From NCBI GenBank assembly GCA_018970605.1, contig JAGWWA010000007.1, positions 1-52,961 on the forward strand: 52,961 nucleotides of DNA, written 5' to 3'. Of this stretch, positions 3,348 to 49,952 are shown piece by piece. Source of the stretch: Planctomycetota bacterium (GTDB taxonomy: Bacteria; Planctomycetota; Planctomycetia; Pirellulales; UBA1268). Below the pieces are notes generated by a model that saw only the letters and a program-made list of their open reading frames with translations, was not told the DNA's origin and did not search any database. The position numbers were made by a program, and so were the translations under genes. Position 1 is the first letter of the stretch, and every line of letters starts with the position of its first letter.

Positions 3348-5504
3348 CTACCGCCGCGGTGCGTCGCCCGTCAGCAGCTCTTCGAGGAGCGTGTCGGCCG
3401 CATACACCTGCTTCAGGGCCGCGACAATTCCCGCGGCGTCCACGGCCACCGCGCGGGCGCGACGATCGTCGTACGCCACGTCGAGCACGAGCGAGTCGAT
3501 GTTGCCGTCGAAAATCACGCCGACGATCTCTCCGGCGGCATTCACGACCGGGCTGCCCGAGTTGCCACCGATGATGTCGGCCGTGCTCGCGAAGTTGAAT
3601 CCCGTGTCGAGAAACGCGGTGTCGGTAGCCAGCGTCGCCTGAGCCTCGCGCCAGCGCGGCGGAAGGTCGAACGGCGGCGTCTCCCGCTTGTCGGCGGCCC
3701 GGGCGAAGAGCCCGCCGAACGTGGTGACTGCCGGGTAGGGCGTGCCAGACTGGGTGCCTCCCGTGACCACACCATAGGCGAGCCGCAGCGTGAACGTAGC
3801 ATCGGGCGGCATTGCCAGACCCTCCCTGGCGAACCTGCTGCGGACGATCTCCGCATGGGCTTGTTTCTTCTCCTCGTCGGCAGCCTCGGCGATCGACCGC
3901 AGCCGACGCGACTCCCCGTCCACCAGCCGGGCCACCGCGAGCATCGGATCCGACGATGCCGAGACGGCCGCAGGGCCGCCGTCATAGAGTTCGCGGCGGC
4001 GATCGGGCCGGCTGCTGGGGGCCGCTCGCCGCCCCAGCTCGGTGCCGGCCACGAGCGTTGCAGCCCGCTCGGCGGGGGACATTCCTCCGAGAACCTTCAC
4101 GACGAGCTCGTCGTCGCCACCGAGCGACGTCGCCAGGAACGTGAGCGAGTCGGCGAGCTTCGTCGTCTCGAACGCATCGTAGAGCGGCTCGTCGGAGAAA
4201 AGCTGGTATTCGAGCGATTCGCGATTCGACTCGCGATACTCCCGCAACCGGTCGCCGCTCGGCTTGGCCCGCTCCTCGACCGACCGCAGGATCGTCCGCG
4301 CGGTGCGGAAGTATTCGCTGTTGAAACCCGCGGCAGCTTCGAGCAGACGATATCGCATCGCGATGCCGTCGAGCGTCTGCTGCGCCCGCTCGATGCGCAC
4401 AAATGGTGACTCTTTCCCCGCGAGCCTGGCCTCGAGATCCCGTCGCACCTGCGTCTCGGTTTCCCGTTTGGCCGCGAGCACCGCGGGGTCGAGAAGCCCG
4501 CCGAGCACGCCAGACCTCGCCTTGCGGCCGTTTTCCACGCCGCGCAGATCCTGCACCGCCTGCCGCCGCTCCTCAGGGCCGCGGCCGGCGTAGCCCCCGA
4601 TCACCGTCTCGAGCCGGTTGAGGATCTGGAGATCGAGCGGCAGACGCCGGTCGCGGAGCGACACGAGTTCCGCGACCGTCGCGTCTCGGTCGGTGTGGCC
4701 GGGGTGCCCCGAGACGAACACGACATCGCCGGCGGCGACCGGCCGAGCAGCCCACGCGAGGTGGTGGTCAGCCTTCACGGGCCGGCCGTCCTCGTAGACG
4801 CGAAACAGGCAGATGTCGAGGTTGTAGCGGGGAAACTCGAAGTTGTCGGCATCGCCGCCGAAGAACGCGATCTGCTGCTCCGGGGCAAACACCAACCGCA
4901 CGTCGGTGTACTTCTTGGCGCGGTAGAGGTGATAGGCTCCACCCTGCCAGAGCGTCACCACATCGCTCCGCAGTCCCGTCGCCGCCAGCGACTCCTTCTC
5001 AATCTCGGCCATCACGGCTCGACGCGCTGCGAATGCCTCGTCGGCTGCCATCTCCGCAGCCACCGCCGCCTGGACGCGGGCGGTGACATCCTCCATCGAC
5101 ACGAGCACGTTCAGTTCCAGGTCGTGGCATTTCCGCTCGTCGTCCCTGCTGGCTGCGGAAAATCCCTCGGCGAGAAGATCGTGGCTCGCATCGCCGAGTT
5201 TGTGGATCGAGTCGGCGCCGACGTGATGGTTGGTGAGCACGAGCCCGTCGCTCGACACGAAGGCGCCGGAACCACCGGAACTGAACCTGACACTCGAACG
5301 CTGCAGATGCTCGAGCCAGGCGGCGTCCAGTCGAACGCCGTGGGCCTGCTCGATCCGAGCCAGGGGCGGGGCGGAAAACAGCCACATCCCCTCGTCCGCG
5401 AGGGCTGCAGCCGCGGCGATAGACCAAACCATGCACGCCGCCGCCGGTGTCCGCCGCCCCAGTCTTGACACAGTACTATACATCAGTACACTCATCATGC
5501 TCAT
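3348..5504 (-). CDS. S46 family dipeptidyl-peptidase (DPP7/DPP11-type serine protease)
   Basis: The 718-residue ORF matches peptidase family S46, exopeptidases that release N-terminal dipeptides in the periplasm. The mature protein opens with the family hallmark DEGMW after an Ala-rich signal peptide. The catalytic triad can be placed at His93/94 (TNHHVG), Asp230 (RYNLD) and Ser649 (GNSGSP). The S1 specificity position 18 residues after the serine is Gly667 (FDGN), as in DPP7 enzymes that prefer hydrophobic residues, rather than the Arg of Asp/Glu-specific DPP11. The start is uncertain: ATG at 5504 or 5483, or GTG at 5471, are all in frame and no strong ribosome binding site decides. The promoter region overlaps that of the divergent yifB. 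Confidence 0.9.
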   Translation of the reverse strand: MSMMSVLMYSTVSRLGRRTPAAACMVWSIAAAAALADEGMWLFSAPPLARIEQAHGVRLDAAWLEHLQRSSVRFSSGGSGAFVSSDGLVLTNHHVGADSIHKLGDASHDLLAEGFSAASRDDERKCHDLELNVLVSMEDVTARVQAAVAAEMAADEAFAARRAVMAEIEKESLAATGLRSDVVTLWQGGAYHLYRAKKYTDVRLVFAPEQQIAFFGGDADNFEFPRYNLDICLFRVYEDGRPVKADHHLAWAARPVAAGDVVFVSGHPGHTDRDATVAELVSLRDRRLPLDLQILNRLETVIGGYAGRGPEERRQAVQDLRGVENGRKARSGVLGGLLDPAVLAAKRETETQVRRDLEARLAGKESPFVRIERAQQTLDGIAMRYRLLEAAAGFNSEYFRTARTILRSVEERAKPSGDRLREYRESNRESLEYQLFSDEPLYDAFETTKLADSLTFLATSLGGDDELVVKVLGGMSPAERAATLVAGTELGRRAAPSSRPDRRRELYDGGPAAVSASSDPMLAVARLVDGESRRLRSIAEAADEEKKQAHAEIVRSRFAREGLAMPPDATFTLRLAYGVVTGGTQSGTPYPAVTTFGGLFARAADKRETPPFDLPPRWREAQATLATDTAFLDTGFNFASTADIIGGNSGSPVVNAAGEIVGVIFDGNIDSLVLDVAYDDRRARAVAVDAAGIVAALKQVYAADTLLEELLTGDAPRR
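5465..5492 (+). promoter_or_regulatory. Sigma70-type promoter for yifB
   Basis: A perfect -35 hexamer TTGACA (5465-5470) is followed after 16 bases by TACACT (5487-5492), which matches four of six positions of the -10 consensus. Transcription would start near 5499, giving a leader of about 49 bases before the yifB ATG at 5548. The segment also carries a direct repeat of CAGTAC (5471-5476 and 5485-5490). On the other strand TATAGT (5480-5475) could be a -10 for the divergent S46 gene, in which case its start would be the GTG at 5471 or later. Confidence 0.6.
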
Positions 5505-5547: not shown

Positions 5548-7119
5548 ATGCTCGCCCGGCTCCAGACCTTCTCATTGTTCGGAATCGAGGCCGTTCCTGT
5601 CGATGTTGAAGTCGACGTGTCGGGTGGATCCCTGCCGGCAACCGTGCTGGTGGGCATGCCCGACGCGGCGATTCGGGAGAGCACCCATCGGGTTGCCCGG
5701 GCGATGGTCAACTCGGGCTTCAACCGGCCAAATGACCGGATCGTCGTCAATCTCGCCCCGGCGGAACTGCCCAAGCAGGCCGCCACATTCGATCTCCCGA
5801 TCACCCTGGGCATTCTGGCCGGGAGCGGGCAGGTTTCGACCGAGCGGCTCGCCGACTACGCCGTGGTGGGTGAACTGTCGCTCGAGGGCTCCACGCGGCC
5901 CGCGCGAGGTGCGCTCTCGATCGCGATGGCGGCGGCCCGGCAGAAGCGGGAGCGGCCCCGCGATGGCAGGCCGTTGAAGGGGGTGGTGGTGCCCGCCGCG
6001 AGCGCTACCGAGGCGGCCGTCGTCGCCGACATCGACGTGATCCCGGTGTCGTCGCTTGCCGAGGCCGTCCAGTTTTTTTCCGGTGAGATCGACATCCCGC
6101 CCGCTCCTCCGCGGGTGGACGAATGGTTTGATCGGTTCGCCGCCTACGACATCGACTTCGCCGACGTCCGCGGTCAGGAGGCGGCGAAGCGGGCGATCTG
6201 CGTAGCCGCGGCCGGCGGTCACAACATCGCGATGGTCGGCCCGCCGGGCGGAGGCAAGACGATGCTGGCCAAACGAATCCCCACGATCCTGCCGCCGCTC
6301 TCGGCTGCCGAGTCGATCGAAACCACGCGGATCTACAGCGCTCTGGGGCTCATGCGGCCCGGGCAGCCGCTGATGGCCACCCGGCCCTTCCGCGCTCCTC
6401 ATCACACGATCAGCGAGGCTGGTCTCGTGGGCGGCCGCTCGATCCCGATGCCGGGCGAGATCTCCCTGGCGCACAACGGCGTGCTTTTTCTCGACGAACT
6501 TCCAGAGTTTCAACGGCGGACCCTCGAGGTGATGCGGCAGCCGCTCGAAGAGGGGGCCGTCACGATCAGTCGAGCCAAGTCCTCCACCCGGTTTCCAGCC
6601 GATTTCATGCTCGTGGCGGCGCTCAACCCCTGCCCATGCGGCTACCGCGGCGACCCGCGGCGAGCCTGCCAGTGCACGGGGCCGCAGGTCGAGAAATACA
6701 TGGGGAAGATCTCGGGGCCGCTGCTCGACCGGATCGACATCCATCTCGAAGTGCCGGCGGTGCCATATCGCGAACTCGCATCGTCACGGGCAGGCACGCC
6801 AAGCAGTCAGATCCGGGAGGCGGTGCTGGCGGCACGCGCCCGCCAGGCGGAGCGGTTCGGCATGCTGGGTGGTGCCGCGCCGCGTTGCAACGCGCGGATG
6901 TCGAGTCGCGAAATCCGCGAACACTGCCGCCTGCAACCATCGGCCGCCGAGCTTCTCCGCAGCGCCGTCGCCGACCTCGGACTCTCGGCACGGGCCCACG
7001 ACAAGGTGCTCCGGGTGGCCCGCACGATCGCCGACCTCGACGCCGGCGACTCCATCTCGTGCAGCCACGTGAGCGAGGCCATCAACTATCGGCTCCTCGA
7101 CCGCAGCCTCTGGCAGTGA
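5548..7119 (+). CDS. yifB: YifB/ComM-family Mg-chelatase-like AAA+ ATPase
   Basis: The 523-residue protein shows the full YifB/ComM layout: an N-terminal ChlI-like S5 fold domain beginning MLARLQT with the VGMPDAAIRES motif, a central AAA+ Mg-chelatase domain with Walker A GPPGGGKT (residues 231-238) and Walker B VLFLDELPEF, and a C-terminal lid domain. A zinc-type Cys cluster (NPCPCGYRGD followed by CQC) lies between strands. ComM is a hexameric helicase that promotes branch migration during integration of transformed DNA. Among several in-frame starts I chose the ATG at 5548, which has a GAGGAG box seven bases upstream and gives the family N-terminus. A run of seven T residues at 6073-6079 lies in frame inside the gene. 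Confidence 0.92.
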   Translation: MLARLQTFSLFGIEAVPVDVEVDVSGGSLPATVLVGMPDAAIRESTHRVARAMVNSGFNRPNDRIVVNLAPAELPKQAATFDLPITLGILAGSGQVSTERLADYAVVGELSLEGSTRPARGALSIAMAAARQKRERPRDGRPLKGVVVPAASATEAAVVADIDVIPVSSLAEAVQFFSGEIDIPPAPPRVDEWFDRFAAYDIDFADVRGQEAAKRAICVAAAGGHNIAMVGPPGGGKTMLAKRIPTILPPLSAAESIETTRIYSALGLMRPGQPLMATRPFRAPHHTISEAGLVGGRSIPMPGEISLAHNGVLFLDELPEFQRRTLEVMRQPLEEGAVTISRAKSSTRFPADFMLVAALNPCPCGYRGDPRRACQCTGPQVEKYMGKISGPLLDRIDIHLEVPAVPYRELASSRAGTPSSQIREAVLAARARQAERFGMLGGAAPRCNARMSSREIREHCRLQPSAAELLRSAVADLGLSARAHDKVLRVARTIADLDAGDSISCSHVSEAINYRLLDRSLWQ

Positions 7120-7220
7120 CACCGCTCGAAACGCCGTCGCCGGGCGGCTCGCGTTCGGGTGCAACGCGGCGGTTCAAAAACCTCTCGACGGCCATCGAAC
7201 TCGTCTGCCACACTGCACGC

Positions 7221-7937
7221 ATGACCGTCACCCGCCACGTCCCGACCTCCCGCCGGCCAATCGGCAGATTCCAGGTTTCCCTGCTCGCCATCGCCACCGT
7301 TCTCATCGCCGTCGGGGCCGCAGCCTTGGCGATTGATCTCCCCGTCGCCACGTGGTGCAAGTCGCACCGTGTGCCTGGGGAGATCGGCCGCCTTGTCAAC
7401 CTGCTGGAGATCACCGGGCACTCGCTCGGCGCCGCCATCGCCCTGATCGCGGTGGTCAGCCTCGACCGCACGCTTCGCCTGCCAGTCCCCGGCCGATTCG
7501 GAACGAGCGAGCGTGCGTTTGCCCGGATGGTCGCCGCAACCTACCTCGGCGGGCTGCTGGCCGATGTCATCAAGGTCTCGGTCGAACGGGTGCGGCCCCG
7601 GGCTGCCGATCTGGCGAGCGTGGCATCGTGGCTTGGCACATTCGGCGACGCATCACTGGGTGTCGAAAAGCCGCACCTCAACGACCTGATGAGTTTTCCA
7701 TCCGGCCACTCGGCCGTGGCCGCGGGACTCGCCGCCGCACTGGCCTGGCGTTACCCCCATGGGTGGGTGCTGTTCGCGCTGCTCGCCGCGGGGACGGCCA
7801 CGCAGCGGGTGGTGGCATCGGCCCACTACCCGAGCGACGTCGCCTGCGGGGCGGCGGTGGGCCTCATCGGTGCCGCCTGCTGCCTCGGCGGACCACGGCT
7901 GACGCGACGTGCGTTGGCCCCTGAAACGGTCGCGTGA
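7221..7937 (+). CDS. PAP2-superfamily membrane phosphatase
   Basis: The 238-residue protein has about five hydrophobic segments and the three PAP2 phosphatase motifs in order: KVSVERVRP, SFPSGHS, and the R...H...D block in TQRVVASAHYPSD. These form the acid phosphatase site that acts on phosphatidic acid, undecaprenyl pyrophosphate or related lipid phosphates at the membrane. The ATG at 7221 gives a short basic N-terminus leading into the first transmembrane helix; the frame is open further upstream but that part overlaps yifB. It follows yifB by about 100 bases on the same strand. Substrate cannot be told from sequence. Confidence 0.85.
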   Translation: MTVTRHVPTSRRPIGRFQVSLLAIATVLIAVGAAALAIDLPVATWCKSHRVPGEIGRLVNLLEITGHSLGAAIALIAVVSLDRTLRLPVPGRFGTSERAFARMVAATYLGGLLADVIKVSVERVRPRAADLASVASWLGTFGDASLGVEKPHLNDLMSFPSGHSAVAAGLAAALAWRYPHGWVLFALLAAGTATQRVVASAHYPSDVACGAAVGLIGAACCLGGPRLTRRALAPETVA

Positions 7938-7989
7938 TACCATCTCAACGCGTGTGTGATCGACGGTCACGAGTCAGGATGTGGGAATC

Positions 7990-8445
7990 ATGGCAGTCAA
8001 AAAGGCAGCAAAGAAGGCGGTGCGGGCAGGTGGTCCCGTGGCCGATGAGGCCGAATCGGCGGCCGCCGTGCCGACCGCGAAGGCTGGCAAGCGCATCCTC
8101 CTCGTCGATGACGACGCGGAAATCGTCGAATCGATGCGCACGGTCCTCGAGTCGCGGGGCTATCAGATCCTGGTCGCCCGCGATGGCAACCAGGGCCTGG
8201 TGCTGGCCGAGGGCGAGGATCCTGATCTCGTCGTCTTGGACATGATGATGCCGAAACGCAGCGGGTTTCTGGTGCTGGAAAAGCTCCGTCGCAGCCGGCC
8301 CAATCCGATGCGGGTGATCATGATCACCGCCAACGAGGGCAGCCGGCACAAGGCCTACGCCGAGATGCTCGGCGTGGACGACTACATCCGCAAACCGTTT
8401 GCCATGGACCGGCTGTTGGAGAGCGTTGACCGGCTCTTGTCCTAA
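7990..8445 (+). CDS. Single-domain response regulator (CheY-like receiver)
   Basis: The 151-residue protein is a receiver domain with a Lys/Ala-rich 34-residue N-terminal extension and no output domain. Receiver residues are intact: acidic cluster D40-D42, phospho-acceptor D84 in LVVLDMMMP, T113 in MITAN and K135 in YIRKPF. It should relay phosphate from a histidine kinase by protein interaction, as CheY or Spo0F do. The ATG at 7990 was preferred to an in-frame GTG at 7981, since an AGGA box precedes it at a suitable distance. No kinase gene is nearby. Its stop overlaps the possible start of the next gene (TAATG), so the two may be co-translated. Confidence 0.9.
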   Translation: MAVKKAAKKAVRAGGPVADEAESAAAVPTAKAGKRILLVDDDAEIVESMRTVLESRGYQILVARDGNQGLVLAEGEDPDLVVLDMMMPKRSGFLVLEKLRRSRPNPMRVIMITANEGSRHKAYAEMLGVDDYIRKPFAMDRLLESVDRLLS

Positions 8446-11279
8446 TGCCGGCTCTGAACGGGATGTTGACTCGTGTCGTGATGCTGACTGGTGTCGTGAT
8501 GAGGGCGCCGCAGTCGGGCATCGTCAGGCGACTCGCGGCCGTCGCATCGATCGCCTTGGGTGCTGCGGGCCCGTGCATGGGGGCGGAACCTCGGGCCGGC
8601 GTCTGGGAGCAACCGGCCGTCTCGATGCCCGTGCGGACTGCCGCGGACGACGAGGATCCGTCCGGCGAACTCGGTGCGGCGTTTACCGTGCCAACGGGGT
8701 TTGTCGTCGAGCGGCTGTTCGTGGTGCCCAAGGACGAGTTGGGGTCATGGGTCTGTCTTGCCACCGACTCCACGGGGCGGCTCATCGCCAGCGATCAAGG
8801 CGACAAGGGATTGGTTCGAATCACCCCGGCGCCGCTCGACGGCTCGGCGCCCACGCGCGTGGAGCGGATCCCCGCGGCGGTCTCCGCGGCCCAGGGGCTG
8901 CTCTGGGCCTTCGACGCACTCTACGTGGTCTGCAACGGCGGACCCGGTAGCGGCCTCTACCGCGTGCTCGATTCGGATGGCGACGACATGCCTGACCGCG
9001 TCGAGAAGCTTCGCGCGTTCGACGGCGGAGGCGAACACGGCCCCCATGCGATCCTGCCATCGCCCGACGGCCAGCGGTTGTTCGTGATCTGCGGCAACCA
9101 CACCCGGCTGCCGTTCGAGGTGACCAACGTCACCGCGCCACAGACGATGGGAGGCGTCCGGACCGATCAGCGGCGGACATCGCTGCCGCCCGGCGCCACC
9201 AGCCGCCTGCCCGCAAACTGGGACGAGGATCAGATCATCCCGCGGATGTGGGATGCCAACGGGCATGCCGTGGGCATCCTCGCGCCGGGTGGCTACGTCG
9301 TCAGCACCGATCGGGACGGCAAGGAATGGGAGGTCTGGACGGCCGGCTACCGCAACCCCTACGACATGGCGTTCAACGCCGACGGCGACTTGTTTGTCTA
9401 CGACGCCGACATGGAGTGGGACTTCGGCATGCCGTGGTACCGCCCAACCCGCGTCAACCACGCGACGAGCGGCAGCGAGCTCGGGTGGCGAAGCGGCAGC
9501 GGCAAGTGGCCCTCGGCACTGCCCGACAGCCTGCCCGCGCTGGTCGACATCGGCCCCGGTTCGCCGGTCGGCGTGACGTTCGGGTATGGCGCGTCGTTTC
9601 CCGCGAAGTACCAGCGGGCCTTGTTCGCCTGCGACTGGACGTTCGGCACGATGTACGCCATCCACCTCGAGCCCCGCGGTTCCTCGTATGTCGGCACGAC
9701 GGAGGAGTTCCTCACGCGGACTCCCCTGCCCCTCACCGACGCCACGATCGCCCGCGACGGCTGCCTCTACTTCACCGTCGGCGGACGCGGCGGCGACAGC
9801 GAACTCTTCCGGGTGCGGTACGCGGGCCGGGAGCCGACCGCCGCGGTCGATCCCCGCAACGAGGCCGGCGCCGGCGACCGCCGCCTGCGCCGCGAACTGG
9901 AGGCGCTCCATCGACGGGGCGACCAACCGGCTGCCGACGTCGCGAGGGCCCTGCCGCATCTCGGTCATCCCGATCGGTTCATCCGCTACGCCGCGAGGGT
10001 GGCGCTCGAGCACCAGCCACTCGAGATGTGGCGCGACAAAGCCCTGGCCGCTGCGGATCCGATGGGCCGCATCACCGCCGCGATCGCCGTTGCACGGCAG
10101 GGGGAGCCGGCCGATCAGCCGGCGATCTTCGCCTGCCTCGATGCCATCGATCCCGGGGTGCTCGATGACGCGGGCCGCCTCGACCTTGCCCGGGCCTGCG
10201 AACTCGCGATCGTGCGGCTTGGCGAGCCGCCCGCCGAGGTCCGGGCCGCGATCGCAGCCAAGGTCTCCCCGTTCTTTCCGTCCGGATCGTTTGATCTCGA
10301 CCGACAACTCTCCAGCCTGCTCGTCGCCGTCCGTGCACCGGGAATCGTGTCCCGCCTCGTGGGCATGCTCGCCGAACCCACCGACTCGGCCGACCTCACG
10401 AACCTTGCCCCCGACGAGGACGACCTCCGCCGTCTCGTGGAGCGGAATGCGCGGTATGGGTCGGCGGTCCGCTCGTCGCTCGAGCGGCGGTCCGACCTGA
10501 TCCAGATCCACTATGCCTACGCCCTGCGGACGGTGAAGGAGAAGGACGCCTGGTCGCTGGAGGACCGACGGACATACCTCGACTGGTTCACGAGAGCCCG
10601 CGAGTGGGGCGGAGGCAACAGTTTCGAAAAGTTCCTGACGAACATCGAGACGGAGAGTCTCGACGGGCTCAGCGATACCGAGAAGATGGCGCTGGTGGCG
10701 ATGGGCGGTCGCACGCCCTACGTGCCACCGCCGCTCCCGAAGCCGGAGGGCCCCGGCCGAAAGTGGACCGTCGCGGAGGTTTTGGCCGCGGCCGAGGAGG
10801 GCTTCAAGCCCCGCACCCGAGACTTCGAGCATGGCAAACGGACGTTCGCCGCCGCCCGCTGCATCGTGTGCCACCGGTTTTCCGGCGACGGCGGCTCCAC
10901 CGGCCCCGACCTGACGCAGGCGGGCGGACGATTTCAGGTGAAGGACGTGGTCGAGGCGATCATCGAGCCGAGCCGGGTGGTCTCCGACCAGTATCGCGCG
11001 AGTGTCGTGCAGACCGACGATGGAAAAGTCGTCACCGGCCGGATCGTGGCCGAGACGCCCGAGCAGATCACGGTGGTCACCGACCCGGAAGACGCGACGA
11101 AGGTGGTCGGTATCCGCCGCTCCAGCATCGAGGAAATCCACCAGTCATCCACGTCGCTCATGCCTGCGGGCCTGCTCGATCAGTTCAACGAGGAGGAGGT
11201 GCTCGATCTCGTCGCCTACGTGCTCTCACGAGACAAGCCAAAGGACCCCCACTTCCGCAAGCCGCCCAAGAACCCCTGA
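8445..11279 (+). CDS. PVC-type membrane-bound dehydrogenase with C-terminal heme c domain
   Basis: The 944-residue protein belongs to the large planctomycete/verrucomicrobial family with an N-terminal glucose/sorbosone-dehydrogenase-like beta-propeller (about residues 80-460, with FVVERLFVVP and GEHGPHAILPSPDG), a helical HEAT-like middle (about 480-780) and a C-terminal cytochrome c domain. The heme motif CIVCH is at residues 806-810, and the domain continues with STGPDLTQAGGRF. An N-terminal signal peptide lies around residues 28-45. The annotated ATG overlaps the previous stop, but an ATG 17 codons later (8496) would give a more typical signal peptide. It is probably a periplasmic electron-transferring oxidase of sugars or related compounds; the substrate is unknown. 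Confidence 0.88.
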   Translation: MPALNGMLTRVVMLTGVVMRAPQSGIVRRLAAVASIALGAAGPCMGAEPRAGVWEQPAVSMPVRTAADDEDPSGELGAAFTVPTGFVVERLFVVPKDELGSWVCLATDSTGRLIASDQGDKGLVRITPAPLDGSAPTRVERIPAAVSAAQGLLWAFDALYVVCNGGPGSGLYRVLDSDGDDMPDRVEKLRAFDGGGEHGPHAILPSPDGQRLFVICGNHTRLPFEVTNVTAPQTMGGVRTDQRRTSLPPGATSRLPANWDEDQIIPRMWDANGHAVGILAPGGYVVSTDRDGKEWEVWTAGYRNPYDMAFNADGDLFVYDADMEWDFGMPWYRPTRVNHATSGSELGWRSGSGKWPSALPDSLPALVDIGPGSPVGVTFGYGASFPAKYQRALFACDWTFGTMYAIHLEPRGSSYVGTTEEFLTRTPLPLTDATIARDGCLYFTVGGRGGDSELFRVRYAGREPTAAVDPRNEAGAGDRRLRRELEALHRRGDQPAADVARALPHLGHPDRFIRYAARVALEHQPLEMWRDKALAAADPMGRITAAIAVARQGEPADQPAIFACLDAIDPGVLDDAGRLDLARACELAIVRLGEPPAEVRAAIAAKVSPFFPSGSFDLDRQLSSLLVAVRAPGIVSRLVGMLAEPTDSADLTNLAPDEDDLRRLVERNARYGSAVRSSLERRSDLIQIHYAYALRTVKEKDAWSLEDRRTYLDWFTRAREWGGGNSFEKFLTNIETESLDGLSDTEKMALVAMGGRTPYVPPPLPKPEGPGRKWTVAEVLAAAEEGFKPRTRDFEHGKRTFAAARCIVCHRFSGDGGSTGPDLTQAGGRFQVKDVVEAIIEPSRVVSDQYRASVVQTDDGKVVTGRIVAETPEQITVVTDPEDATKVVGIRRSSIEEIHQSSTSLMPAGLLDQFNEEEVLDLVAYVLSRDKPKDPHFRKPPKNP

Positions 11280-11433: not shown

Positions 11434-13302
11434 GTGCCGTTCCAGCCCACATCGCCGCCGCGGGACGACGTCAAGGAGCGGGTCCGGGAGGCGATCGACA
11501 TCGTCGACGTGGTCGGCTCTTACATCTCGCTGCGGCGTCAGGGCAAGGCCATGACCGGGCTCTGCCCATGGCACGAGGACTCCCGCCCAAGCCTGCAGGT
11601 GAATCCAGACCGCCAGACCTACCGCTGCTGGGTCTGCGACGTGGGAGGCGATGTCTTCTCGTTCGTGATGCGGATGGAGAAGGTCGAGTTCCGCGAGGCG
11701 CTCGAGCAGCTCGCCGACCGGGCCGGGATCGAGCTGCCGCGGGGTCGCGGTGGCCTTCCCCCCGACGACAAGGCGGCGTTGCGGTCGGTCCAGGCCTGGG
11801 CCGCCGAGCGCTTCTGCGACTGCCTCCGGTCGTCGCCCGAGGCGGCTGCAGCCCGCGAGTACCTCCGCTCCCGCGGCCTGTCGCCGGCGACGAGCGATCG
11901 CTTTCAACTCGGCTTCGCCCCGCAGGCCTGGGATTGGCTGCTGCGCCAGTCGGTCGCGGCGGGCATCGGTCGCGACGACCTCGTCAGGGCGGGCCTGGTG
12001 ATCGAGCGGGACGACCGCTCCGGCCACTATGATCGGTTCCGCGGCCGAGTGATGTTTCCGATCCGCGATCCGCAGGGACGGTGCGTGGCGTTTGGCGGCC
12101 GCGTGCTGCCCGGCGACCGGCCCGATTCCGCGAAGTACATCAACTCTCCCGAGACGCCGCTGTTCTCCAAGAGTTCCATGCTCTACGGACTCGACACGGC
12201 CCGCGAAGCGATGGCCGATTCGCGACGGGCGATCGTGGTCGAGGGTTACACCGACTGCCTCGCCGCCCGGCAGGCCGGCATCGACGATGTGGTCGCCGTG
12301 CTCGGCACCGCGCTCGGCGAGCGGCATGCGAAGCTCCTGCGGCGGTACGCCGACCGCATCATCCTCGTGCTCGACGGCGACGACGCCGGCCGCCGGCGGG
12401 CCAACGAAGTGCTCGAGGTGCTGCTCGCCGAGCCGATCGACGTCCGGATCGCGCGGATGCCCACCGGTGTCGATCCCTGCGAGATGATCCTGGAGCAGGG
12501 CCGCGACGCCTTCGAGGCCCTGGTCGCCGAAGCCTGCGACCCGCTCGACTACCGCATGGATGAGGTGCTGGCGGGCCTGGCAGCCGACGCCGGAGACGAC
12601 GCCGCGCTGGCATCGGTGGAGAGCGTCCTCAAGGCCTTGGCCGCGGCGGCCACGCGATCGAGCCTCGCCGGCTCGCAGGCCCGGCTCCGCGAGGATCAGA
12701 TCCTGGGGCGGCTCTCGCGCCGCTTCGGCCTCTCGCGAGACCTCCTGCGATCTCGGATGCTCGAACTCCGCGGCGCCGCCCCCGCGACCGCCGCCGCTTC
12801 GTCCGACGACCATCGCCCCACGCGGCTTCCCGCCTGGGACCGCGAGGTTCTGGAGGTGCTCGTCGGCGTTCCCGACAGCGTCGGACTGATCATCCGCGAA
12901 GTTGGTCCCGCCGATGTCGAGACCCCCGCCTGCCGGACGGTGATCGAAACCGCCGGCCGGCTGCATGCCTCGGGCCGGACCGTGGCCCTTGCCGACCTGC
13001 TCATGGAGCTCGTCGACCCCTCGCTCCAGAGCCTCCTTGTCGCCGTCGACGAGTCGGGGGCCGCGCGTGGCGGCCTCGATCCTCAGGAGCGGGTCAGCCA
13101 CTTCACCGAAGCCCTTCGCCGCCGCGCCGCAGAGCGGCAGGCGCACGTCGCCGCGCGGGCCTTGAAGACAAACCGACTCGATTCGCGATCCGAGGCTGAA
13201 ATCCTCGAGCGGCTGCTCGCCGAACGGCGCGCCGCGCAGGGGATGCCGGACGGGATCGCACCGTGTTCCGTACAGGCCGCTTCCGAGCCCAAGGAGGGGT
13301 GA
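11434..13302 (+). CDS. dnaG: DNA primase DnaG
   Basis: The 622-residue protein has the complete bacterial primase plan. The N-terminal zinc finger uses C44, H47, C65 and C68 ([11 protein letters not shown] ... YRCWVC). The catalytic core follows, with the TOPRIM motifs VVEGYTD and LVLDGDDAG, and a helical C-terminal region would bind the replicative helicase. DnaG lays down RNA primers at the replication fork. The start is GTG at 11434, chosen because it gives a family-typical distance to the zinc finger (a few residues longer than in E. coli). The gene precedes rpoD by 100 bases on the same strand, the dnaG-rpoD pairing of the classic macromolecular synthesis operon; rpsU is absent here. Confidence 0.95.
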
Positions 13303-22418: not shown

Positions 22419-22691
22419 ATGGGACAGGCAATCGTCGATCCGGCCGAACTCCGCAGGTTCGCGGGCGCCCTCCGAAAGTTCAGCGATGAGGTCGTCGCGC
22501 AGATGCAGATGGTGCAGCGGCAATTGGCGGGCCTGAGTTCCACGTGGCGCGACCAGGAACAGCAGAAGTTCGCCGAAGAGTTCGAGGCCCAGTTGAGCAC
22601 GTTCAAGCGGTTCGCCGAGTCGACCAGCGAGTACGTTCCCTACCTGATCCGCAAGGCGGAACGGGTCGAGGAATACCTCCAGCAGCGCTGA
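22419..22691 (+). CDS. WXG100-like small helical protein of a type VII secretion-like module
   Basis: The 90-residue protein is predicted as two helices joined at a turn carrying the W-x-G-type motif as W43-R-D45, followed eight residues after the Trp by F51. Length, central Trp and heptad-like helices fit the WXG100/ESAT-6 family, secreted in dimeric form or acting as adaptors for FtsK/EccC ATPases. The start is ATG 22419 with AGGGGA upstream. It is the first of four closely spaced genes (38, -4 and 53 base gaps) ending with an FtsK-type ATPase, which supports the assignment. The C-terminal YxxxD/E export signal is not obvious, though YLIRKAERVEEYLQQ ends the protein. Confidence 0.8.
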   Translation: MGQAIVDPAELRRFAGALRKFSDEVVAQMQMVQRQLAGLSSTWRDQEQQKFAEEFEAQLSTFKRFAESTSEYVPYLIRKAERVEEYLQQR

Positions 22692-22729
22692 TCCGCCGCC
22701 GACCAGCCGCCCCGCAAACGAGCTCTCGC

Positions 22730-23341
22730 ATGTCGACACAAGCAGATGTCAAATCGATCGACACGCTCGCCTTCATGAAGGCGGCGTTCGCGTCGTTCGC
22801 GCACGAGTCCGGCCAGGCGATCTCCGAGTGCGAGATCCAGGGGCAGCGCGCCGTGGACTGGATCTGTGTGGATCAGGCGGCCTTCTGGAAGGCCGAGGTC
22901 CGCCGCATGACCGAACTGGTGAACAAGGCGGTCAAGGATCTCGAGTACTGCAAGGCCTTCAAGAAGGTCGGCAACAACCAGCCCTCCTGCGTGGAGGAGA
23001 AGAAGGCGCTCGAGAAGGCCAAGCAACGGCTTGCCCGGGCCGAACAGAAGGCGGAGGCGGTCCGCCGCTGGACGCCCGTCGTCCAGCAGCAGTTCCGGGA
23101 GGCCTGCGTGCGGCTGGTCCGGTTCCGCGAGGTCGTCGATGTCGACTGCCCGCGGTCGATGGCCCTGCTGGAAAAGATGCTCAAGGCCCTCGACGCCTAC
23201 CGGCAGGTCGCCTCGCCCACCGGCGACTCCGGCACCGGCGGCGGGACGGGCGGCCAGAGCGTCGCCCGCCAACTCGACGGCGGGCAGGCGGCGAAGCCTG
23301 AGGCGGCACCGCCGCCGCCCGCAGGAGCACCACCGTCATGA
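22730..23341 (+). CDS. Coiled-coil protein of the WXG/FtsK module
   Basis: The 203-residue protein has a helical N-terminal region with W44 and F52 (WICVDQAAF, the same eight-residue spacing as its WXG neighbours), a long Lys/Glu coiled coil (about residues 85-150) and a low-complexity Gly/Pro/Ala tail (about 160-203). No known domain was recognised. Cys residues at 34, 46 and later positions are unusual for a WXG-type protein and suggest a cytosolic or disulfide role. Its stop overlaps the start of the next gene as ATGA, so the two are translationally coupled. It could be a larger WXG-superfamily substrate, a chaperone or a structural adaptor of the module. Confidence 0.7.
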   Translation: MSTQADVKSIDTLAFMKAAFASFAHESGQAISECEIQGQRAVDWICVDQAAFWKAEVRRMTELVNKAVKDLEYCKAFKKVGNNQPSCVEEKKALEKAKQRLARAEQKAEAVRRWTPVVQQQFREACVRLVRFREVVDVDCPRSMALLEKMLKALDAYRQVASPTGDSGTGGGTGGQSVARQLDGGQAAKPEAAPPPPAGAPPS

Positions 23342-23574
23342 GGGTCGGCGACCTGTCCAGCGGCGCGTCGAAGCTTGCCAACGCGCTCAAACAGCTGAAC
23401 ATCAAGTGGGAGATCGCCACCGAGGGCTGGCACGATGTCCGAGCCAAGGCCTTCCACAAGGACAACATCGAACCGCTCACGCCGAGCGTCAAGGAGACAC
23501 TCGACGCCCTCGGACGGCTCGCGGAGGTCCTCGACCGCGCGATCCGCGACGTGAGCGACTCCGACGGCATGTAG
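23338..23574 (+). CDS. Second WXG-like small protein of the module
   Basis: This 78-residue helical protein carries W31-H-D33 at the predicted turn and F39, exactly the W-x-D-x5-F pattern of the 90-residue protein at 22419. It lacks extended similarity elsewhere, so the two look like diverged partners that could form a heterodimer as EsxA/EsxB do. The start ATG overlaps the previous stop by four bases. The distal helix ends SDSDGM; a second GACGGCATG copy just after the stop is a minor sequence duplication. Secretion is not demonstrated. Confidence 0.7.
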   Translation: MRVGDLSSGASKLANALKQLNIKWEIATEGWHDVRAKAFHKDNIEPLTPSVKETLDALGRLAEVLDRAIRDVSDSDGM

Positions 23575-23627
23575 TCTCCCGACGGCATGCCCCCGCCTTC
23601 CACGCCCCCCAGCACTGAGGATTCCAG

Positions 23628-26600
23628 GTGAGCTCGAACGCCGCCGATTCGTCGCCTCGCGAGGTCAGCACCGCCACCGCCTCCGCCCGCTCGGCCTACC
23701 ACCCGGACGTGCTGCGGGAGCAGATGCAGATCCTCCGCCGGGAGGCCGCGGCCCGGGCCGAGTCCGAGAACCGCATCCACTCGACGTTCGAGTCGGAGAC
23801 GACGTCGATCCGTGCCGCGGCCGATCGCGAGCTCGCCGAGGTTCGCCGGAAGGGTGCCGCCGACATCGATGCGGCCCTGCGGAAGCACGACGAGATCAGA
23901 CGGCAGGCGGAGGCCTGGCGGGCGGCCGAGCAGAAGAAGATCGACGAGTACCGGCAGGCGAAAACGCGCGAATGCGCGAAGGCCTGCGACGAGGCGGTCA
24001 CCGAACTGAAGGAAGAGGAGGTGTTCGAACAGGTCCGCTTCAAGCAGGTCGCGAGTGAGAAGGCCCTGGAGCCGCAGAAGGCGGCCCGGTCGTGGGAACA
24101 GAAGCTCGCAGCCGCGTTGACCCAGATCAACGCCGAAGCCGCCGCGGTCGCGAAGCAGCTCGCTGCCTGGGGCGTCAAGGATTCGGGCGGTGCCGCCCCC
24201 GCCGCACCGGCGGAACAGGGCACACCCGTCGAGCAGGTGCTCGCCGCCCGCGAGGCGGTCGCCAAGCTCAGCCAGGAGATTCTCAACGACGCGGCGGCGA
24301 AGGGAGCCCTCTCGGGCGGCATCGGAGGGCTGTTCAGCGGGAAGAAGGGGGACATTCGGGCGAGCCTGGCCTCACGCCACGACACGCTCCTGTCGCACGT
24401 CCGCCAGGCCACCTCGCTCGAAGCCGCCGCCCGCGAGTGGATCGCGACCAGGGCCAAGGAGCACGAGCGTCAGCTGAAAAAGAAGCTGCTCGACGAAGAC
24501 GAAGCCCGCAAGGCCCAGGTGGTGGAGAAAATCAGCGCGGCCAAGGCCCGACGCGACGCCGCCCTGGCGGCCGTGACGGCCAAGTGCAGCGAGGCCGAAG
24601 CGAAGGTGGCGGCGAAGGTCGCCACTGAACTCGCGGCCGCCGAGCAGAAGTATCCGTCCCAGGTGGCGACCCTCGAACAGTCGCTGGCCGCCGATCTCGC
24701 GCGCATCGAGCAGGAGCGAGACGGCCGCCTCGCCGCCGCCTCCGAGAAGCGGGACAGCGACTGGGCGACGATGACGGCCACCTGGCGCCAGGCACGCTCC
24801 CAGACTGCGGCCATCGCCGCTGAAGCCTCGCGGCTCGACGCGGCGGCGTTCAAGTCCTGGAGCGAACTGGCGGACGACTCGGTGCCCTTGCCCGTCGAAC
24901 CGCCTCCGGGGCTCCGCTTCGGCGATCTCGCCCTGACGCTCGAGCGGGTGCCCGGCGGCGTGTCGGCCACGGCAGCCCTCAATGAGTTCGGGCCGGTCGC
25001 GTGGACGCAGCCGGCAACCGTTCCCTGGCCCGTCGCCTCCTCGCTGCTGATCAAGACCTCGGCGATGGAAAAGGAGACCGCGTCGGCGATGATGCAGGCC
25101 TTGATGCTGCGGATCGCCACCGGGCTGCCTGCGGGCCAGAGCCGGTTCACGATCATCGATCCACTCGGCTTGGGCAAGCAGTTCGCCGGCTTCATGCACC
25201 TCGCCGACTACGACGAGTTGCTCGTCACCAGCCGCATCTGGACCGAGCCGCAGTTGATCGAGCAGAAGCTCGCCGACATCACCGAGCAGATGGAGGTGGT
25301 GATCCAGAAGTATCTCCGCAACGAGTACGAGTCGATCGGTGCCTACAACGCCGACGCGGAGGTTCCGGAGCCCTACCGGTTCGTCGCGGTGGCGAACTTC
25401 CCGGCCAACTTCAACGAGACGAGCGCCCGCCGGCTGGCGAGCATCGCCTCGTCGGGCGCCCGCTGCGGGGTGTACGTGATCCTCTCGGTCGATCCCTCGC
25501 AGCAGGTCCCCTCGGGATTCTCGCTGGCCGACGTCGAGCAGCACTGCACCGTGCTCACGCTCAAGGACGGCACCTACACCTGGAAGGACCCGGAGTGGTC
25601 GAAGTGGCCCCTCACGGTCGAGCAGGCCCCGTCAGACGAGGTGTTCACGCGGATCATCCAGCGGGTCGGGCAGGCGGCCAAGGCCGCCAAGCGCGTGGTC
25701 GTCCCCTTCGATCGGGTCGCGCCACCGGAGAGCGAGTGGTGGCACGGGAGCACGGCCAACGAGGTTCTCGCGCCGCTCGGACCGGCCGGTGCCAAGAAGC
25801 TCCAGTACCTCAAGCTCGGCAAGGGGACCAGCCAGCACCTGCTGATCGCCGGCAAGACGGGCTCCGGCAAATCCACGCTCATGCACGCGATGATCACCAG
25901 CCTCGCGCTGCAGTACAGCCCCAACGAGATCCAGTTCTATCTCATCGACTTCAAGAAGGGCGTCGAGTTCAAGCTCTACGACCATTACGCCCTTCCGCAC
26001 GCCCGCGTCATCGCCATCGAGAGCGAGCGGGAGTTCGGACTCTCGGTGATGGAGCAGCTCGACCGCGAGTTGAAGCGTCGCGGCGATTTGTTCCGCGAAC
26101 TGTCGGTGCAGAACGTCGGCGGGTTCCGCCAGACCGGTCATCCCGACCCGATGCCGCGGATCCTGCTGATCATCGACGAGTTTCAGGAGATCTTCGTCGA
26201 GGACGACAAGATCGCCCAGGATGCGACGCTGATCCTCGACCGGCTTGTCCGCCAGGGCCGAGCCTTCGGCATCCACGTGCTGCTCGGCTCCCAGACGCTG
26301 GGCGGCTCCTACAGCCTGCCCCGGGCCACGATGGGGCAGATGGCCATCCGCATCGCGCTGCAGTGCAACGAGGCCGACTCGAGCCTGATCCTCTCCGAGG
26401 ACAACACGGCGGCCCGGCTGCTCACGCGCCCCGGCGAGGCGATCTACAACGATGCCAACGGCATGATCGAGGGCAACAACCCCTTCCAGGTCGTGTTCCT
26501 CACCGACGAGCAGCGCGAGCAGTATCTCGGGGCGCTTCGCAAGCTCGCGGACCGGCGAACCGACATCCCGCACCTCGACCGGATCGTGTTCGACGGCAAT

Positions 26601-27668
26601 CAGGCTGCGGATCCGGCGCTCAACCCGCTGCTCACCGAGCTCCTGGCGTCGGGCACCGTCCATGGCTCCGAACTGGTGGCCCCGCTCGCCTGGATGGGTG
26701 ATGCGATCGCCATCAAGGATCCCACCGCGGCGATCTTCCGCCGTCAGGGGGGCGCCAACATGCTGATCGTGGGGCAGCGGGAGGATCTCGGTGCGGCCAT
26801 TCTCGCGATGTCGATGGTCAGCCTGGCGGCTGGACTCGACCCCCATCCGAACGGCGAGCTCGGCAAGCCGGGCAGGTTCGTGCTGCTGGAGCCGGCGATC
26901 GCCGAGGAGCGACCCGACATCCTGATCGCCACGGCGGCGGCACACCTGCCGCACGAGGTGGAGGTCGTCGGCCGCCTCGGTGTCGCCGACGCCGTGGAGC
27001 GGCTGGCCGCGGAGGTGAAGCGCCGACTCGAGGAACAGGTGCTCGACGGCGAGGCCGTGTTCGTGATCGTGCGCGACCTCGGCCGCTTCCGCGAACTCCG
27101 CAAGAACGACGGCGACTTCGGCTTCTCCTTCGGCGGCGACAAGAAGGCCTCTCCGGCCGACAACTTCCTCACGCTTCTCAAGGACGGCCCACCGGTGGGG
27201 ATCCACATGGTCATCTGGTGCGACTCGCTCACCAACCTCCAGCGGACGTTCGACCGCAACGCGATCAAGGAGTTTGAACTCCGCGTGCTGTTCCAGATGA
27301 GCGGAAACGACTCGAGCCAGTTGGTTGACACGCCGATCGCCGCGAAGCTCGGCCCCCAGCGGGCACTCTTCATTCACGAGGAAACCGGCACGCTCGAGAA
27401 GTTCCGGCCCTACGCGTTCCCCAGCGCCGAGTGGCTCGACACGGTGTCCGGTCAGATGCGGGCCCGACGACAGGGAACGCCGGTGGAGCGGCCCGTGGCG
27501 AAGCCAGCCGCGGCATCATCCGATCCAGCCCCCACTGACGATGCGGGTGGCGGACTCGGCGGTTTCTCGGCCTTTGGCGGGGGCGACTTCAACTTCTCCA
27601 GCATGCTCGACGACCTGCCGGGCGGCGGTGGTGACAAGCCCGCCGACGGCGACGCACCCAGCGGGTGA
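23628..27668 (+). CDS. FtsK/SpoIIIE (EccC-like) ATPase with N-terminal coiled coil
   Basis: The 1346-residue protein starts at GTG 23628 (GAGGA box). Residues about 30-410 are Ala/Lys/Glu coiled coil with no hydrophobic membrane segment. An FtsK/HerA-type ATPase follows, with Walker A GKTGSGKST near 742-750 and Walker B LLIIDEF near 846-852, plus a sensor-like GSQTLGGS. A second ATPase-like domain spans about 1020-1300. Its P-loop is degenerate (IVGQREDLGAA near 1045) and its Walker B region reads FVIVRDLG, so it is probably inactive. The tail is Gly/Asp-rich. Tandem FtsK domains with degenerate downstream copies recall EccC of type VII secretion, but EccC normally has transmembrane helices and this protein does not. 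It probably powers transfer or remodelling of the neighbouring WXG proteins. Confidence 0.85.
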   Translation: MSSNAADSSPREVSTATASARSAYHPDVLREQMQILRREAAARAESENRIHSTFESETTSIRAAADRELAEVRRKGAADIDAALRKHDEIRRQAEAWRAAEQKKIDEYRQAKTRECAKACDEAVTELKEEEVFEQVRFKQVASEKALEPQKAARSWEQKLAAALTQINAEAAAVAKQLAAWGVKDSGGAAPAAPAEQGTPVEQVLAAREAVAKLSQEILNDAAAKGALSGGIGGLFSGKKGDIRASLASRHDTLLSHVRQATSLEAAAREWIATRAKEHERQLKKKLLDEDEARKAQVVEKISAAKARRDAALAAVTAKCSEAEAKVAAKVATELAAAEQKYPSQVATLEQSLAADLARIEQERDGRLAAASEKRDSDWATMTATWRQARSQTAAIAAEASRLDAAAFKSWSELADDSVPLPVEPPPGLRFGDLALTLERVPGGVSATAALNEFGPVAWTQPATVPWPVASSLLIKTSAMEKETASAMMQALMLRIATGLPAGQSRFTIIDPLGLGKQFAGFMHLADYDELLVTSRIWTEPQLIEQKLADITEQMEVVIQKYLRNEYESIGAYNADAEVPEPYRFVAVANFPANFNETSARRLASIASSGARCGVYVILSVDPSQQVPSGFSLADVEQHCTVLTLKDGTYTWKDPEWSKWPLTVEQAPSDEVFTRIIQRVGQAAKAAKRVVVPFDRVAPPESEWWHGSTANEVLAPLGPAGAKKLQYLKLGKGTSQHLLIAGKTGSGKSTLMHAMITSLALQYSPNEIQFYLIDFKKGVEFKLYDHYALPHARVIAIESEREFGLSVMEQLDRELKRRGDLFRELSVQNVGGFRQTGHPDPMPRILLIIDEFQEIFVEDDKIAQDATLILDRLVRQGRAFGIHVLLGSQTLGGSYSLPRATMGQMAIRIALQCNEADSSLILSEDNTAARLLTRPGEAIYNDANGMIEGNNPFQVVFLTDEQREQYLGALRKLADRRTDIPHLDRIVFDGNQAADPALNPLLTELLASGTVHGSELVAPLAWMGDAIAIKDPTAAIFRRQGGANMLIVGQREDLGAAILAMSMVSLAAGLDPHPNGELGKPGRFVLLEPAIAEERPDILIATAAAHLPHEVEVVGRLGVADAVERLAAEVKRRLEEQVLDGEAVFVIVRDLGRFRELRKNDGDFGFSFGGDKKASPADNFLTLLKDGPPVGIHMVIWCDSLTNLQRTFDRNAIKEFELRVLFQMSGNDSSQLVDTPIAAKLGPQRALFIHEETGTLEKFRPYAFPSAEWLDTVSGQMRARRQGTPVERPVAKPAAASSDPAPTDDAGGGLGGFSAFGGGDFNFSSMLDDLPGGGGDKPADGDAPSG

Positions 27669-49857: not shown

Positions 49858-49952
49858 CGCCGCCACCTCGCCAACCCAGCACCCACGGCCGGTACACTGT
49901 TCGGCCCATTCCCACCCTAGCAAACGCCTCCAGCGGCGACACGTTCCATTTC

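Follow-up and report, generated by a model that had tools for sequence, protein, structure and literature searches.

A planctomycete cassette of WXG100-type proteins and an EssC-like ATPase, with and without a membrane hairpin

We analysed a stretch of 52,961 nucleotides (the window) from a Planctomycetota bacterium of the Pirellulales (UBA1268; GenBank assembly GCA_018970605.1, contig JAGWWA010000007.1), in which positions 22419-27668 carry a cassette of about 5.2 kb encoding small WXG100-type proteins and an FtsK-type ATPase resembling EssC and EccC. Its four genes lie on the + strand in the order WXG1, cc, WXG2 and ATPase, with gaps of 38, -4 and 53 bases, and the tight order described in an initial annotation of this DNA was borne out by the coordinates of the open reading frames (ORFs). 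The features of the cassette are as follows, with protein lengths in amino acids (aa):

22419..22691, + strand: WXG1, a 90-aa WXG100 protein with a W-x-D turn (Pfam WXG100, 1.6e-7, above the cut-off)
22730..23341, + strand: cc, 203 aa, predicted to form a long two-helix hairpin with a disordered tail
23338..23574, + strand: WXG2, a 78-aa divergent WXG100-like protein with W-x-D (Pfam WXG100, 0.026, below the cut-off)
23628..27668, + strand: ATPase, 1346 aa, FtsK type resembling EssC/EccC, with a long N-terminal helical region
23685..24272, + strand: ATPase helical segment 1, residues 20-215, from the alignment; fast evolving
24303..24350, + strand: glycine-rich stretch, residues 226-241, at the site of a two-helix membrane hairpin in 76 of 93 scored ATPases
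24411..24842, + strand: ATPase helical segment 2, residues 262-405, from the alignment
24858..25727, + strand: motor domain 1, residues 411-700, without Walker A, from the structure model
25740..26507, + strand: motor domain 2, residues 705-960, with the sole Walker A; Pfam FtsK_SpoIIIE at residues 715-890
25851..25874, + strand: Walker A motif of motor domain 2, residues 742-749
26670..27497, + strand: motor domain 3, residues 1015-1290, without Walker A, from the structure model

The ATPase matched the Pfam family FtsK_SpoIIIE with an E-value of 8.4e-32, and no FtsK-gamma-like DNA-reading domain was found among its Pfam matches. The EccC and EssC models matched it at about 1e-30, far below their curated cut-offs (110.6, 104.1 and 102.6 bits vs 509, 778 and 347, respectively). 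Both the alignment and the structure model delimited three motor domains, a layout different from that of the four NTPase domains given for the systems T7SSa-T7SSj in the accessible text of PMC11217815. The Walker A motif was present in the middle motor domain of 96 of the 97 homologues and in each outer domain of none of them (0/97); the window protein contains a single such motif. The top structural match to the motor model was the cytoplasmic domain of EccC (E-value of 1.6e-33, template modelling score of about 0.4), followed by EssC and then by FtsK. The N-terminal 410 residues, 32% of which are charged, aligned as helical-type sequence. Relative to four members of the same genus that also lack the membrane hairpin, identity was 52-57% in helical segment 1 and 75-98% in the motor domains.

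The profile of WXG1 had its nearest solved structures in 3fx7 and 2gts (2e-10 and 2.7e-10, respectively), identifying HP0062 (2gts by name; 3fx7) as the nearest solved relative, with EsxB and EsxA next, and its alignment contained 24 invariant columns in 19 sequences. Four relatives of WXG2 reached 2.5e-4 to 7.8e-4 in genome searches, also below the cut-off, the WXG2 profile matched plasmid WXG100 proteins (with values reaching 1.6e-7 among 40 proteins), and WXG2 aligned with WXG1 in hhalign with a P value of 1e-3 and a probability of only 22%. These several weak, agreeing results suggest that WXG2 is a probable member of the WXG100 family. The initial description of both small proteins as WXG-like thus stands for WXG1, whereas for WXG2, below the cut-off, it is backed by relatives and profile. 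The cassette would then contain two WXG100-type proteins, of which WXG2 is the degenerate one; both have W-x-D rather than W-x-G, as do all the distinct complete sequences compared (84/84 for WXG1 and 93/93 for WXG2).

The AlphaFold2 model of cc (mean predicted local distance difference test score of 86) contains helices at residues 8-77 and 88-161 and a disordered tail, with no nuclease domain. No Pfam match above the cut-off was obtained for cc, and nothing significant was found in a fold search (best E-value of 0.041). Assignment of cc to the WXG100 proteins was considered and rejected, with no support from hhalign and no profile similarity. One cc from a metagenome-assembled genome of the Phycisphaerales (L082, positions 3732-4793) has an Imm33-like domain at its C-terminus (Pfam 1.4e-14), a hint of a toxin/immunity history for cc.

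A search for synteny across planctomycete genomes, proposed together with the initial annotation, yielded 106 de-duplicated ATPase loci, 71 of which had at least 1.8 kb of upstream sequence; the WXG1-cc-WXG2-ATPase set was complete and in order in 65 of these 71. The order and constraint of the cassette exceed chance, because 65 of 71 loci keep this order and the ratio of nonsynonymous to synonymous substitution rates (dN/dS) for WXG1 is 0.01-0.07 with respect to four same-genus members. Among 60 genomes (the window's own and 59 relatives), 48 had a true ATPase (E-value below about 1e-100; weaker matches look like other FtsK proteins) and 49 a WXG100 gene, with agreement in 59 of the 60. The discordant genome, 51% complete, has the WXG100 gene and no ATPase match. 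The ATPase was present in 34 of the 37 genomes of the window's family and in 14 of the 23 from the rest of the order. Each of the 49 genomes with a WXG100 gene had exactly one above the cut-off, and four extra sub-cut-off matches lie inside WXG2. Likewise, the window's own genome (75.8% complete, 164 contigs) contains a single match to the ATPase and a single WXG100 gene, WXG1.

On the scale of the phylum, WXG1 was found in 40 of 294 genomes, the ATPase in 39 and both in 38 (38 of the 41 with either), and the cassette is therefore patchy in Planctomycetota. In listings of these 38 genomes inspected by eye, WXG1 and the ATPase share a contig but are separated by 0.19-3.4 Mb in four (G083, G164, G210 and G308), and occupy different contigs, no closer than 9 kb to the contig start, in another four (G146, G195, G251 and G273); linkage is ambiguous, owing to contig ends, in G135, G182, G197 and G337. 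The genes therefore tend to be retained in the same genome even where they are not adjacent. In line with these unlinked cases, the ATPases L087, L094 and L101 (perhaps also L085 and L088, with short upstream sequence) form a clade without WXG1, cc or WXG2 within the examined flank. Among the best 80 of 555 ATPase loci, which do not mark the limit of the family, 79 titles name planctomycetes and one reads “bacterium”.

Membrane segments were scored by 19-residue hydropathy (threshold of at least 1.6) in the region aligned to residues 160-330 of the window ATPase. From 110 ATPase loci with a frame of more than 1000 aa, 13 duplicates were dropped, leaving 97, including the window's own; four were fragments at the site, such that 93 could be scored. 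In 76 of these, the N-terminal helical region contained a membrane hairpin of two helices, with a segment length of 185-263 residues and a best hydropathy of 1.62-3.15. The other 17, including the window's, have a segment of 148-175 residues (the 148-residue value being that of L062, with an N-terminus cut short) and a best hydropathy of 0.29-1.38. No segment reached the threshold anywhere in the window ATPase, in which the glycine-rich stretch stands where the hairpin lies in its relatives, or in any of the WXG1, cc and WXG2 sequences (from 96, 105 and 115 loci, respectively). The initial annotation was right in giving this ATPase no transmembrane helices, as judged by hydropathy; their absence is a trait of the window protein and 16 other scored ATPases, not of the family. 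Nor does the helical region replace the transmembrane helices: it surrounds their former site. An artefactual absence, due to a wrong start codon or a frameshift, was rejected because the segment is of 148-175 vs 185-263 residues between conserved flanks and the helical parts align on both sides.

All 17 hairpin-less ATPases fall inside one 45-row clade (support 100), which also contains every row of the window's family and 26 hairpin rows; the remaining 50 hairpin rows, those of Isosphaeraceae, Gemmataceae and Phycisphaerales among them, lie outside it. The motor tree required four changes of hairpin state, three of which are forced by the starred branches, and a tree of the helical region alone (42 rows) required three, with two forced. 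The window's own genus holds both states; among close relatives, L002 is of the anchor-less type and L009 of the anchored one, and the cultivated Singulisphaera acidiphila DSM 18658 has an anchored version (L074). Given this distribution of the hairpin, the changes were probably losses rather than gains, and the helix-free state was probably derived within a mostly hairpin-bearing family. The system proposed initially, stripped-down and possibly cytosolic, is indeed stripped-down and helix-free here, as such a derived state and not as the condition of the family.

Apart from the loss of the hairpin, the anchor-less cassette stays under purifying selection. In pairwise comparisons with same-genus members of the anchor-less group, dN/dS was 0.01-0.02 (vs L002-L004) and 0.07 (vs L006) for WXG1, with values of 0.03-0.05 (vs L002-L004) and 0.04 (vs L006) in the middle motor domain. 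The ratio was 0.10-0.17 in cc and reached about 0.4 in the ATPase helical region. The frames are open in the seven members of the window's anchor-less group, with L007 interrupted by the end of its contig. WXG1 is 98-100% identical to that of the window in five of the six other members, and 89% identical in L006.

Outside the phylum, 667 plasmid records matched the ATPase. We examined the five best, in which 34-59% of the query was covered; most of the other plasmid matches listed were EccC, EssC or FtsK. A Caballeronia plasmid has the order VWA, WXG100, a 436-aa coiled-coil-type protein, proteins of 113 and 76 aa, ATPase, CARF, VWA, PP2C and a Ser/Thr kinase. The C-terminal end of its coiled-coil-type protein resembles a restriction endonuclease by eye, with no library match confirmed. 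On the plasmid of Rhodococcus AH-ZY2, the ATPase is followed by a 314-aa protein, a 73-aa protein, a WXG100-like protein and TerD, and on that of Rhodococcus pseudokoreensis it lies between Hsp70 and GrpE on one side and small proteins on the other; on a Deinococcus plasmid it precedes several helical proteins. Finally, the plasmid of Helicobacter sp. NHP19-012 (L156, positions 6761-11163) encodes in a row a WXG100-like protein, a 340-aa protein, SMI1/KNR4, a 77-aa protein and the ATPase. With a WHH nuclease domain in the 340-aa protein (1.1e-11) and a SUKH-type protein adjoining it (1.6e-6), this set may be described as a putative compact nuclease-immunity-motor cassette. Of nine plasmid proteins compared with the cc profile, two exceeded all 300 heptad shuffles (the 314-aa protein of Rhodococcus AH-ZY2 and a 326-aa protein of Deinococcus), and that of Caballeronia was borderline, with one of 300 shuffles as good. 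On each of two plasmids, the gene next to that of the ATPase (L154, positions 8201-8629, and L155, positions 11448-12059) encodes a small protein with a single hydrophobic helix at its C-terminus, and the anchor may therefore also come from outside the ATPase.

Starting from the gene content, the motif pattern of the motor, the hairpin distribution and the selection described above, we consider it an even chance that the cassette is a planctomycete, cargo-poor WXG100/EssC-like ATPase module outside classical type VII secretion, working as a WXG-gated motor on a cc client. By analogy with the FtsK family, the ATPase would form a ring, which the single Walker A motif suggests is driven by the middle motor domain. 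EsxB-type proteins bind and activate EccC; WXG1 and WXG2, probably helical hairpins, might similarly bind the motor domains without an ATP site of their own and switch the motor on. The cc hairpin would be the client threaded or remodelled by the motor, as suggested by gene order and by the coiled-coil partners beside related ATPases, one of which, on one plasmid, is a nuclease protein. The N-terminal helical region would act as a stalk, the two-helix hairpin of which may, in most relatives, seat the ring on the cytoplasmic membrane to give a minimal translocase. In the window lineage, with a glycine-rich stretch instead of the hairpin, the result would be a soluble or peripherally bound machine with the same small partners; the motor may act in the cell interior or be tethered to the membrane by other means.

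Several observations weigh against this proposal. If the essential function were membrane transport, it would be difficult to account for the repeated disappearance of the anchor, and the trees, obtained by short searches and with many weak forks, give no direction of change. The YxxxD/E motif, a type VII export motif, is absent from all three small window proteins. It is likewise missing from the C-terminal 25 residues in 84 WXG1 and 93 WXG2 sequences, and was found near the end of helix 2 in three of 87 cc sequences. A globular tail, by composition, is present in only one of 93 planctomycete cc sequences, a set including some from duplicate loci; this single case is the Imm33-like domain mentioned above. 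The similarity between cc and the plasmid proteins is modest, with six of the nine, including the Helicobacter nuclease protein, not beyond shuffles. Lastly, the linked set is incomplete or missing altogether at six of the 71 loci (partly present at L108 and L120; absent at L021, L087, L094 and L101), and a six-frame profile search revealed no partner genes at the latter four either.

A broader reading, which we put forward tentatively as a possibility, is that this machine left membrane transport: the lineage kept the motor, both WXG partners and cc under selection and lost the hairpin several times, as if WXG100-gated action on a helical client were useful in the cytosol and secretion were one application of it.

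A purely intracellular conflict or stress machine of the defence type, never a transporter, with a motor remodelling nucleoprotein or protein targets and with the WXG proteins and cc as adaptors, is a serious rival that we nevertheless judge unlikely. It would fit the repeated loss of the membrane hairpin, the VWA, PP2C, Ser/Thr kinase and CARF genes beside the Caballeronia relative or TerD beside that of Rhodococcus AH-ZY2, and the location of CoCoNuT-associated relatives in restriction-type operons (PMC11090510, in the portion available). One of 57 flank proteins from 14 loci in other families of the order (L021-L034), within three genes of the cassette, is the BREX protein BrxL. However, no Pfam family recurred in more than three of these 57, VWA, PP2C and kinase were not among the 25 families shown of the 85 obtained, and the hairpin in 76 of 93 ATPases needs a reason. 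The window's own flanks are ordinary, encoding a YdjY-domain protein, a HemQ-type chlorite-dismutase (Cld) protein, a DegP-type protease and CinA, with no VWA, TerY-P or restriction neighbours beside the cassette, other loci being seen in part. These flanks are constant beside the locus in several genera of the window's family: at the four family loci with wide flanks (L035, L037, L039 and L040), the HemQ-type gene lies directly upstream (4/4), with YdjY beyond it (3/4) and the DegP-type gene downstream (4/4).

An ordinary type VII (ESX or Ess) system, with its other membrane parts encoded elsewhere and with WXG1 and WXG2 secreted, could be expected from the combination of WXG100 protein, EccC/EssC-like ATPase and, in most relatives, membrane hairpin. 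However, EssB and EccB were found in none of the 60 genomes, and the YukD/EsaB ubiquitin-like protein in only one of them (G041), whereas positive controls were detected, including one in Bacillus subtilis for EssB and one on a Mycolicibacterium plasmid for EccB; the absence of ESX membrane components claimed initially is supported for these three parts, and EccD, EccE, EssA and EsaA were not searched. In G041, the YukD-like protein (L141) lies about 3.9 Mb from the WXG cassette, on the same contig. Together with an ATPase that stays far below the EccC/EssC cut-offs and has three motor domains where four are reported (PMC11217815, accessible text), the lack of a YxxxD/E signal, the absence of membrane helices from the window ATPase and the single above-cut-off WXG100 gene in each of the 49 genomes with any, these results largely refute this explanation, within the parts searched, and leave it very unlikely.

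A DNA pump of the FtsK/HerA type, with the small proteins as DNA-loading factors, is highly unlikely: the fold is that of FtsK/SpoIIIE and FtsK motors are the next-best structural matches, but EccC and EssC are best by both sequence and structure, no FtsK-gamma-like domain was matched, and a WXG100 partner is present in 38 of 39 ATPase-bearing genomes. Decay of the membrane version into anchor-less remnants, as the fast-evolving helical region and hairpin loss might suggest, is scarcely credible given the low dN/dS of WXG1 and the middle motor domain, the open frames and the near-identity of WXG1 in this group.

Elsewhere in the window, an 855-aa ORF on the - strand (47356-49923) has passenger-associated-transport repeats (Pfam PATR, 9.2e-14) and possibly encodes an autotransporter-type surface protein, and positions 3348-5504 encode a Peptidase S46 family protein (9.9e-186). 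A defence assignment by PADLOC was not used: the motor matched only SspH, mad8 and HerA types, and cc resembled HEC-02A weakly (0.0096). In viral contigs, only one partial, remote relative was found.

Type VII secretion is regarded as the work of a membrane machine, and here closely related motors with and without the hairpin occur in one genus. Comparison of anchored and anchor-less forms asks whether WXG100-gated ATPases need the membrane, and a cassette of this size is small enough to be reconstituted. The plasmid relatives tie the module to nuclease and immunity-type genes.

The kind of module described here is already known and is not, as initially proposed, an undescribed system; it appears in two earlier studies, both considered from partial text. 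A footnote in PMC3482391 (2012) reports planctomycetes with a solo WXG protein and a YueA-like ATPase with three FtsK domains, the middle one alone active. The present cassette is similar in its WXG100 protein, three FtsK domains and Walker A motif in the middle one only, and planctomycetes are named there. That footnote concerns mobile versions of the type VII secretion system, whereas the cassette here has constant flanks in several genera of one family; cc, the second WXG protein and the membrane hairpin belong to the planctomycete cassette and are not mentioned for the earlier form in the text available.

The CoCoNuT-associated ATPase of PMC11090510 (2024) has an N-terminal coiled coil, an active central domain, two WXG100 proteins and no transmembrane domains; the authors cite a 2012 study for stand-alone versions and propose secretion by a different mechanism, and the accessible main text does not mention planctomycetes. 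In that form, as far as the available text describes it, the partner is a fusion of coiled coil and D-ExK nuclease, followed by a DNA-mimic-like protein and with VWA flanks, whereas the window cassette has no nuclease and no VWA. Most planctomycete relatives, unlike the CoCoNuT-associated ATPases, have membrane helices.

In Helicobacter pylori, according to the accessible part of PMC4978471, a group with WXG100, FtsK/SpoIIIE (HP0062/HP0066 type) and HNH nuclease genes was called a WXG100 secretion system. The WXG100 and FtsK/SpoIIIE genes are common to both, and the nearest structures to WXG1 are those of HP0062; that group also has an HNH/Endo VII nuclease and a DnaK homologue, and the relationship between WXG1 and HP0062 is remote (profile E-value of 2e-10). 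The systems T7SSa-T7SSj, as described in the accessible text of PMC11217815, have membrane-bound ATPases with four predicted NTPase domains and, in most cases, a YukD-like protein. The cassette shares with them a WXG100 protein and an EccC/EssC-like ATPase, and differs in its three motor domains and in that EssB, EccB and YukD were not found with it. Planctomycetes are not mentioned in the accessible text of PMC3935865, and in the passages available from searches of open-licence full text neither the membrane hairpin nor a four-gene operon of planctomycetes was described. What appears to be new here is the four-gene planctomycete form, in which cc has no nuclease and the locus keeps a stable place in one family, together with a membrane hairpin that was probably lost repeatedly.

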